A stretch of 64,000 nt of DNA from the NCBI RefSeq assembly GCF_007741495.1, contig NZ_CP036262.1, positions 5,270,001 to 5,334,000 of the forward strand. Direction: 5' to 3'. Below are positions 12,096 to 37,095 of the stretch, one piece after another (the stretch's first letter is position 1; each line of letters starts with the position of its first letter). This stretch comes from Roseimaritima multifibrata (GTDB lineage Bacteria; Planctomycetota; Planctomycetia; Pirellulales; Pirellulaceae). Position numbers and translations under genes: made by a program. The notes beneath the pieces were generated by a model, which saw only the letters and a list, made by a program, of their open reading frames with translations, was not told where the DNA came from and did no database searches.

Positions 12096-12250
12096 TGTCG
12101 CCTTTCGCGCGGGATGTAGCAGAGATAACCTGGCTCCCCTCGCCCTCAAAACAAGCTCGTTTGAATCGGGTTTAAAACGCGATCATCGGTTCGTCATCTG
12201 GTCCAATCGACTGCAATTCAAGAGCTTGTTTTTGGGGAGAGGGGAGCCAG
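12096..12250. repeat. Short member of the inverted-repeat element family
   Basis: It begins with TGTCGCCTTTCGCGCGGG, the same end sequence as the elements at 5882 and 16707. An inner pair of inverted repeats follows: CTGGCTCCCCTCGCCCTCAA at 12130 and its near complement ending GGGGAGAGGGGAGCCAG at 12250. The unit contains the TGGTCCAATC segment shared with the element at 16707. It carries no gene. Confidence 0.65.
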
Positions 12251-16706: not shown

Positions 16707-17133
16707 TGTCGCCTTTCGCTCGGGACGACAAGTAACGAAAACCTGGCTCCCCTCGCCCTCAAAACAAGCTCCCTAAATACAGTTTTGACATTGGATCAAC
16801 GGTTCGTCAGCTGGTCCAATCAGCTGGAATTCAAGGGCTTGTTTTGGGGGAGAGGGGCTGGGGGAGAGGGGGCCGACAGCGGCAGGGCAAGGAGTGACGT
16901 AAACGCTTAAAACACGAGACGTTAACCGGGCGTTCGCGGCAAAATCGCCTCGCGAAAACTCCCCCTCACCCCCAGCCCCTCTCCCCCAAGCAAGCTCCGC
17001 AAAACCAAACAAAAAGGCAGTGATAAGACAATGAGTGATCCAAGGTTTCTTCCGCAACAACGGGCTTGCTTAGGGGAGAGGGGAGCAATATTTTCGTCAG
17101 TTTTAAATTCATATCCCGAGCGAAAAGGCGACA
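16707..17133. repeat. Long member of the inverted-repeat element family
   Basis: It is bounded by TGTCGCCTTTCGCTCGGGA (16707-16725) and its complement (17114-17133) with one extra base. Inside are CTGGCTCCCCTCGCCCTCAA (16751), G-rich blocks (GGGGGAGAGGGGCTGGGGGA near 16848) and C-rich counterparts (CCCCCTCACCCCCAGCCCCT near 16961), and an inner right end AGGGGAGAGGGGAGCAATAT near 17073. Several overlapping frames rich in Pro/Ser occur here but none looks real. It occupies the gap between the convergent mutS and sigma-factor genes. Confidence 0.72.
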
Positions 17134-35879: not shown

Positions 35880-35979
35880 AAAGATTGTAGCCTTTCACGC
35901 CGCGACACCGTTGCGCAAGAATCGCCATCCACGGCGGTGCAATCGCACGTAGCAGAGTCTCTCCGAGACTCGTGCGATA

Positions 35980-36533
35980 TATAAATGAAGAAAGTCTGGC
36001 TCCCCTCGCCCCTAAGCGAGCTCTTTGGTGCGGAAGAAATCTCTGCTAGCTCATTGTGTGATCTCTGCCTCTTTGTTTGATTTAGTGGAGCTCGCTTGGG
36101 GGAGAGGGGCTGGGGGTGGACTGTCAGAAATCATAGCGGCGTGGCAATCTACGTAAACTGCAGCATGTCAGACAACCCGGACTTGGAACGCTGTGAAACC
36201 ATATTTTTACCAGCACTTTGCGGTAAAAACGACCGTGAAACACATCGGTTTTGTCGGGTTGCGTCCAGGTCGACACCGACAAGTTTTTGACAGTCCAGGC
36301 TGGGGGAGAGGGGGAGATTTCCAGGCGGCGATTTTGCAGCGAAGACGCGGTGAAAGCCTCGGATTTCAAGCGATTATGCCACGCCTTGCCCAACGCTGTC
36401 GGCCCCTCTCCCCCAGCCCCTCTCCCCCAAAACAAGCCTTTGAATCGTACTTAATTGCATTAGCTGGCGAACCGTTGATCCAGTATCAAACCTGTTTTAA
36501 GCGAGCTTGTTTTGAGGGCGAGGGGAGCCAGAC
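35980..36533. repeat. Repeat copy A (interrupted by a MITE-like insertion)
   Basis: This copy of a ~364-base element is bounded by inverted repeats (AAAGTCTGGCTCCCCTCGCC at 35990 and the complement ending GAGGGGAGCCAGAC at 36533). It matches copy B at 36577-36940 almost base for base, apart from a 190-base insertion (181-base MITE plus a 9-base duplication). It contains blocks of GGGGGAGAGGGGCTGGGGG and their C-rich counterparts. The preceding GAGTCTCTCCGAGACTC palindrome (35956-35972) recurs at 36996. Confidence 0.85.
36117..36297. mobile_element. 181-bp MITE-like insertion with 9-bp target duplication
   Basis: The insert starts TGGACTGTCAGAAATC and ends GTTTTTGACAGTCCA, so its tips are 10-bp perfect inverted repeats (13 of 14 with the next bases). 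It is flanked by the direct repeat GGCTGGGGG at 36108-36116 and 36298-36306. The corresponding site in copy B (36705-36713) has a single GGCTGGGGG and no insert. An internal hairpin (TTTTTACC...GGTAAAAA, 36203-36227) is present. It encodes nothing, so it is non-autonomous; the transposase family is not identified. Confidence 0.85.
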
Positions 36534-36576
36534 TTTCTTTACTTGTAAATCTCATCGCCTCTCGGGACGTGCGATT

Positions 36577-36940
36577 TATTAATGAAGAAAGTCTGGCTCC
36601 CCTCGCCCCTAAGCGAGCTCTTTGGTGCGGAAGAAATCTCTGCTAGCTCATTGTGTGATCTCTGCCTCTTTGTTTGATTTAGTGGAGCTCGCTTGGGGGA
36701 GAGGGGCTGGGGGAGAGGGGGAGATTTCCAGGCGGCGATTTTGCAGCGAAGACGCGGTGAAAGCCTCGGATTTCAAGCGATTATGCCACGCCTTGCCCAA
36801 CGCTGTCGGCCCCTCTCCCCCAGCCCCTCTCCCCCAAAACAAGCCTTTGAATCGTACTTAATTGCATTAGCTGGCGAACCGTTGATCCAGTATCAAACCT
36901 GTTTTAAGCGAGCTTGTTTTGAGGGCGAGGGGAGCCAGAC
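36577..36940. repeat. Repeat copy B (uninterrupted, empty site)
   Basis: This is a near-identical direct duplicate of copy A, displaced by 597 bases on the left of the MITE and by 407 bases on the right. It is itself flanked by inverted CGCCTCTCGGGACGTG (36556-36571) and CACGTCCCGAGAGGCG (36960-36975). The stretch 36941-37095 further holds the GAGTCTCTCCGAGACTC palindrome and a CTCCGCCTC/GAGGCGGAG hairpin. Frames rich in SPSPPK across both copies are not genes. Confidence 0.85.
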
Positions 36941-37095
36941 TGTCTTCATTTATTCTTTTCACGTCCCGAGAGGCGGAGCCACACGTAGTAGAGTCTCTCC
37001 GAGACTCGTGCTGGCTGCTCTCCGCCTCGGAGAGGCGGAGCTACGAGAATGGAGCTACGAGAGGCGACAATTTGGTGCCGCGCGCTTATGGCGGG

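Follow-up and report, generated by a model that had tools for sequence, protein, structure and literature searches.

A 181-bp MITE and a resident insertion sequence share ends and a 9-bp target in a palindromic repeat of Roseimaritima multifibrata

Within a 64,000-nucleotide stretch of the Roseimaritima multifibrata chromosome (the window), two neighboring and nearly identical repeats differ by a 181-bp non-coding insert found in the upstream one, which raises the question of whether this insert is a mobile element that entered a previously empty site and, if so, which transposase may have moved it.

The insert, its ends and its empty site

The features of this locus, at their positions in the window, are the following:

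36117..36297, no strand: MITE, non-coding, 181 bp; 3 full-length copies in the genome, with ends common to a 1702-bp insertion sequence (IS)
36117..36126, + strand: left terminal inverted repeat TGGACTGTCA; extends to 14 bp if one mismatch is allowed, 14/14 in the copy at C1:135674
36288..36297, - strand: right terminal inverted repeat; the last 14 bp are those of the right end of the IS
36108..36116, + strand: 9-bp target duplication GGCTGGGGG, left
36298..36306, + strand: 9-bp target duplication GGCTGGGGG, right
35971..36539, + strand: copy A of the host repeat, with the MITE inside
36561..36953, + strand: copy B of the host repeat, 393 bp, without insert
36705..36713, + strand: intact target site within copy B
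36204..36229, + strand: internal hairpin, the stem of which (TTTTTACC/GGTAAAAA) has one pair fewer in the 94% identical copy

A sequence-only reading of this locus had proposed a MITE-like insert with perfect 10-bp ends, flanked by a 9-bp duplication and accompanied by an empty site at 36705-36713, and all three elements were recovered in our analysis. TGGACTGTCA matches the window at two places only, 36117-36126 on the + strand and 36288-36297 on the - strand, compared with a mean of 0.11 matches in shuffled windows and two matches in 2 of 100 shuffles. GGCTGGGGG is present on both sides of the insert, at 36108-36116 and 36298-36306. When the two repeats were aligned, positions 35971-36116 matched 36568-36713 at a spacing of 597 and positions 36298-36544 matched 36705-36951 at a spacing of 407, the two half-alignments overlapping by exactly 9 bp at the empty site. 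Since the difference between these spacings is 190, or 181 + 9, the MITE and one duplication explain it entirely. Over 379 positions, the host sequences of copies A and B show 3 differences, all more than 120 bp from the site, and no open reading frame (ORF) of at least 60 aa lies wholly within the MITE, as the listed ORFs extend past its edges.

The internal hairpin that had been placed at 36203-36227 does exist, but its arms are at 36204-36211 and 36222-36229, where the fold prediction also pairs them. The suggestion that it may matter for mobility was not borne out, since one stem pair is missing from the 94% copy and the folding excess of the MITE interior is small. The whole MITE folds better than shuffled sequences (z of -4.9 for the + RNA, -2.8 for the - RNA and -3.3 for DNA), but with the ends held fixed the interior displays only a small excess (z of -1.9 for + and -0.7 for -). 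A structured RNA within the MITE was also considered and rejected, given this small interior excess, the predicted fold of the 94% copy, which differs from that of the window MITE, and the Rfam results: among the 57 matches listed (E <= 10), none fell on the MITE and none reached the gathering score, most of them falling on the inverted arms of the host repeat.

Further copies and a resident insertion sequence with the same ends

The genome consists of one contig (C1) of 7,216,590 bases. A search for further copies, in which the 9-bp duplications were compared, returned three full-length MITEs (100, 99 and 94% identity), each flanked by GGCTGGGGG. Those outside the window, at C1:3168401-3168581 (locus L004) and C1:135674-135854 (locus L005), differ from the window MITE at 1/181 and 10/181 positions, respectively. 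No copy was found in plasmid or phage collections, and none in 59 other genomes chosen as relatives, bar two 28-bp matches in genome G040 (L042:2967-2994 and L043:3245-3272, which lie within inverted copies of one contig stretch). These match the right end of the MITE at 26/28 positions and lie within a response-regulator-like gene, and we treated them as chance rather than as MITE relatives.

A search for a transposase gene bounded by the same ends returned two IS copies:

C1:2138424-2140125: IS copy (L038), 1702 bp, one 538-aa ORF
C1:3186878-3188579: IS copy (L039), 1702 bp, one 538-aa ORF; same repeat position as the MITEs

The two copies do not differ anywhere along their 1702 bp, and their 9-bp duplications are GCGTGGGAC and GGCTGGGGG. 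An exact search of the genome for the 15-base end motif TGGACTGTCARAANY yielded 8 hits, which correspond to the 6 MITE ends and the 2 IS right ends; as for near-miss ends, the one at C1:4576433 has no correctly oriented partner at <=2 mismatches and the one at C1:4664771 has weak partners at distances of 1.1 and 2.5 kb. With its further copies and a transposase-bearing element that has the same ends, the insert can be called a MITE, and, as a MITE, it is of an ordinary kind.

The similarity between MITE and IS is confined to about 14 bp per end, which are identical, with nothing clear inside, and it is the right end of the IS that each of the two MITE ends resembles. Since only these ~14 bp per end are common, the MITE is not a simple internal deletion of the resident IS. 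From these sequence comparisons, we infer that the MITE transposed and that the resident IS is the likely source of the transposase that moved it. An alternative that keeps a minor share of plausibility is that the MITE was moved by a related IS absent from this genome, the ends of the resident IS being alike by descent only. The short extent of the similarity and the match of both MITE ends to a single IS end would fit such a history, as would a decayed 167-bp left end of a 92%-identical IS relative at C1:68705-68871; however, the common 14 bp are identical between the MITE and the resident IS, and the two resident copies do not differ from each other, one of them occupying the very same target, which suggests recent activity. 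The region around the decayed end (L085, C1:66000-71500) also includes, by eye, a nearby REP-associated tyrosine transposase-like gene, as well as GGGGACAGTGCACGCA-like repeats around the decayed end.

The reading that we favor, with a probability of roughly 0.87, is that the insert is a MITE with the ends of the resident IS and that the DDE transposase of this IS moves it into a preferred 9-mer, in the window after the A/B duplication. According to this model, the transposase encoded by the 538-aa ORF would recognize the ~14-bp ends common to the MITE and mobilize it in trans, either by cutting it out or by copying it out (cut-and-paste or copy-out/paste-in). Integration would then take place via a 9-bp staggered cut at the preferred 9-mer, here GGCTGGGGG, of which the repeat arms contain many sites. 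In the window, a 407-bp unit would first have been duplicated in tandem and the MITE would then have entered copy A, while copy B stayed empty. Hermes transposes by cut-and-paste. Copy-out/paste-in is ascribed to ISCth4 in PMC7780238.

Host repeats and the number of insertions

The downstream repeat had been described as the product of a local duplication. It is near-identical to copy A, as claimed, but it is not a mere local duplicate: copies A and B are members of an abundant palindromic 393-bp repeat family, of which the genome contains 65 or more full-length members free of the MITE (341 bp or more of the 393 covered), 43 of these 65 being at least 90% identical to copy B. Two further diverged copies (~81%), one of them partial, are found on the - strand of the window, at 12130-12244 and 16743-17120. 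Head-to-tail arrays of the repeat exist at C1:2790804-2792417, 2625408-2626718, 6285708-6287104 and other places, with spacings of 406-408, 444-474 or 501-503 bp, and the A/B pair of the window is a two-unit case. Among three same-genus genomes, G002 has diverged copies (~70%), G001 has short partial matches and G003 has none. In the titles and abstract openings covered by our literature search, we found no account of the 393-bp repeat, of the IS/MITE ends or of the transposase family, and PMC6749651 offers a table of the satellites of a planctomycete.

The genome contains 216 sites with GGCTGGGGG, and with 129 repeat arms counted at <=3 mismatches, up to ~60% of these sites are within repeat arms. 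Four of the five elements (all MITEs and one IS) are located at GGCTGGGGG, all in the 5' arm of the 393-bp repeat; the exact site is kept in the 5' arm of 46/65 copies and in the 3' arm of 53/65. Considering this abundance of sites in the arms, a sequence preference may suffice to account for the choice of target, leaving the 5'-arm bias unexplained. Hairpin recognition was rejected as the basis of target choice in R. multifibrata, as GGCTGGGGG is not palindromic (1/4 pairs).

A different explanation, which we consider improbable, is that a single MITE insertion took place and that the filled host repeat then multiplied or spread by gene conversion. Position, arm and orientation are alike in all three MITE copies, as would be expected from such a spread, and the probability that all four insertions would fall in the 5' arm of a full-length copy is ~0.003 if all 216 sites are assumed equal. 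Divergence is also equal in MITE and host between the window and L005 (10/181 v 23/362), whereas between the window and L004 the MITEs differ at 1/181 positions and their hosts at 22/379 (Fisher p 0.0022). Since these hosts differ at positions 130 and 168, with the site in between (145-153), a conversion tract joining these two copies would have to be very short.

When the hosts were compared with all other copies, three of the four filled ones had a MITE-free copy as their nearest relative: empty copy B for the window host (3/379), a MITE-free neighbor for the L004 host (12/370) and an empty copy elsewhere for the IS host L039 (5/385). The L005 host has no close MITE-free relative, its nearest being at 22/368. 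The neighbor of the L004 host is not a clean empty site, since it has a 14-bp gap at positions 135-148 that includes part of the target, and slippage between two GGGGGAGAGGGG runs would explain this gap. In a maximum-likelihood tree of 69 host copies, 65 of which are without MITE or IS, three changes are required to explain the distribution of the MITE and four to explain that of the filled state. Approximately unbiased (AU) tests did not reject, at 5%, the three MITE hosts as one clade (p 0.0616) or the window and L004 hosts as one clade (p 0.0812), but they did reject a clade of all four filled hosts (p 0.0015), the fourth of which has the IS at the same site. The host-copy relationships favor separate insertions over co-amplification, though not decisively for one copy, co-amplification staying a rival chiefly for L005. 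The proposal that the MITE entered copy A after the A/B duplication is the simplest reading of the host sequences, with 3/379 differences between the A and B hosts and 22/379 between copy A and the host of the 99% MITE.

That copy B and the other empty copies instead lost the MITE by precise deletion, together with one 9-bp repeat, is highly improbable: the 9-bp direct repeats would permit it, sequence alone gives no direction and the 14-bp gap next to the L004 host could be an excision scar, but with 65/69 tree copies free of MITE and IS and three tree changes for the MITE, an ancestral insert would require many losses.

The transposase family and its place among known elements

The transposase family, which had been left unassigned, turned out to be of the DDE type and without a library model above cut-off. 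The resident transposase reached no curated cut-off of Pfam or NCBIfam, and its best matches (Pfam, NCBIfam, PHROGs, PDB sequence) were at E 0.0016 or worse and mostly coiled coil. Profiles and relatives likewise gave weak matches, with one sub-threshold match to DDE_Tnp_1_5 (E 0.065), and library scans of 14 aligned relatives gave transposase matches below threshold only. The best of the family was that of a Persicobacter relative to the NCBIfam model IS5_2 (32.5 bits, cut-off 140); the same protein matched IS6 with 26.5 bits (cut-off 125), two others being weaker, and both of its matches cover the N-terminal part only. Membership of IS5 or IS6 was rejected, as no NCBIfam model was above its curated cut-off. 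Relative to the protein-family libraries searched, the family is uncatalogued. In all 14 aligned proteins, D188, K197, D257, D281, H284, E459, S460, G463 and K466 (L038 numbering) are invariant, and with them the pattern D-D-DxxH-E (D188, D257, D281xxH284, E459).

Relatives were found at 5 loci of the genome collection, all in planctomycete MAGs by title (Kuenenia is a planctomycete), and in 15 plasmid records (Persicobacter, Nostoc, Thiodictyon, Gloeothece, Calothrix), and they span planctomycetes, cyanobacteria, a gammaproteobacterium and a bacteroidete. In a sample of the phylum (392 genomes), they are present in 2 or more, a count that may be too low since no more than three candidates were scored per genome. 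They are also present in 5 of 40 near-relative genomes, R. multifibrata being included in both counts; none were found in phage records and none were confirmed in viral contigs. At the 12 loci inspected in 11 of the plasmid records, every matched gene is annotated as 'hypothetical protein', and 2 of the 15 records have no annotated feature at the matched position. In the cyanobacterial ISs L089, L094, L095, L096 and L097, the N-terminal part corresponds to a separate small overlapping ORF in another frame, so that frameshifting is possible in these five elements; this part is fused to the main ORF in planctomycete ISs.

Duplications of 9 bp were detected in 19/30 related copies (13/20 loci, 2/2 and 4/8 across three sets). 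They include GGCTCCGCC, CCCGGAGGG, CCCTCCGGG and GCCTGGGGG, and their first and last bases are G or C in 13/13 tabulated sites. Where 11 bp also matched, as in the L075, G429 and L089 copies, we counted 9 bp; for L154, we took 9 of 10 matching bases; L087 was read on either strand; and the L098 end pair was the third-ranked automatic candidate, picked by its likeness to L091. At a half-width of 8, the sites of 10 members inferred to be planctomycete had a mean of 5.0 pairs, compared with 2.09 for random sites from the same loci (0/4000 random draws), and the other 9 sites displayed no significant excess (390/4000 random draws). Planctomycete members thus seem to tend toward G+C-rich palindromes, a preference that owes part of its support to G429 and G014, with three copies each, and to which both resident IS sites are exceptions (1/4 pairs each). 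In G014, the three resolved copies (L153, L154, L156) of four found are at the center of symmetry of C-rich palindromes (for example, CCCTCCCGGAGGGAGGG), and in G429 the 9-mer GGCTCYGCC is only 1.5x as frequent as the backward control, with 649 v 440 occurrences. Two MAG ISs (L077:2929-4620 and L076:1731-3423) have no direct duplication and are flanked by convergent G/C-rich repeat units, the L077 flanks forming a long perfect inverted stretch, as after inversion, recombination or misassembly.

An AlphaFold2 model of the relative L075 (mean pLDDT 68.5, pTM 0.61, 5-row alignment) contains strands at 162-172, 175-184 and 201-208, a helix at 213-227 and strands at 232-235 and 256-259, after which all long elements are helices, with E434 in the helix that starts at 431. 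Its weak regions are the block 431-440 (mean 58), residues 439-468 (under 50) and the poorly supported residues 82-101 and 110-154. In this model, D167, D236 and E434 would be at the positions expected for an RNase H-like triad, and D260-x-x-H263 fits the C/DxxH motif that is tied to helical insertion domains in PMC7780238. Foldseek comparison of the model with the PDB gave 821 matches at E <= 10; the 6 at E <= 0.001 were all Hermes or P-element, the top ones being Hermes (1e-5) and the P element (4.8e-5) with TM-scores of 0.26-0.33, and UvrC and retroviral integrase cores came next among the matches listed (best 50 of 821). With modest confidence, the model supports an RNase H-like fold with an all-helical insertion, as a fold class and not as family membership.

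Three known families were compared with these proteins. The hAT (Hermes) and P elements are animal elements with 8-bp target duplications. Their helical insertion and DxxH have counterparts in the L075 model, without a sequence match to the family, and the duplications here depart from theirs, being 9 bp in 19 of the 30 copies examined, with no clear length read for the other 11. The IS256 family, as portrayed for ISCth4 in PMC7780238, combines a DDE triad, C/DxxH and a helical insertion in an RNase H fold, and these are also found here, the triad as presumed from the invariant residues and the helices partly at low confidence in the model; its duplications, however, are 8-bp and A/T-rich, against 9-bp and mostly G+C-rich ones here, and its D2-E spacing is 107, against 185-261 here. 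No IS256/mutator-type model was among the matches listed for 14 members (Pfam: 25 of 26 families). The IS4 family, which includes Tn5 and IS10, has the YREK signature Y(2)R(3)E(6)K. It was rejected because, even if E(6)K is found in 14/14 members, E-4 is T or S in 14/14 and E-7 is never Y; hhalign against one IS4-annotated transposase (partial) gave a probability of 0.1.

The MITE, its likely full-length source and their preferred target are thus linked within one chromosome, and the interesting part of this finding is a transposase family that was missed by the libraries searched. We suggest, tentatively and with the odds somewhat against it, that these elements may form a widespread uncatalogued bacterial IS family that is a counterpart of Hermes and the P element, makes 9-bp duplications, prefers G+C-rich palindromic repeats and has spawned target-sharing MITEs. 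If the likeness to Hermes and the P element is true, the family would provide a bacterial relative in which to study the enlarged helical insertion domain, and also a selective integrator for palindromic repeats.

A precedent for IS elements in palindromic repeats is found in the REP-targeting ISs (ISPsy8, ISPa11, ISPpu9/10, ISRm22 and ISRm19), which occupy a fixed position in an abundant palindromic repeat, as here, with ISPsy8 and ISRm22 inserting at the palindrome axis (PMC1525189). The duplications given there are of 0-6 bp, with none stated for ISRm19, whereas they are of 9 bp here. An association of type 1, defined in that paper by every copy being at the same point of the repeat, was rejected, as this is the case of 4/5 elements and 1/2 ISs here, L038 being elsewhere. 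As for the MITE, it resembles known bacterial MITEs (Nezha and others, PMC3733652; MITEAba12, PMC6382973; review PMC10969869) in being short and geneless, in having terminal inverted repeats, a target duplication and several copies, and in having the ends of a full IS; it differs from them in that its partner IS belongs to a family without a library model and in that one 9-mer in a repeat arm was reused.
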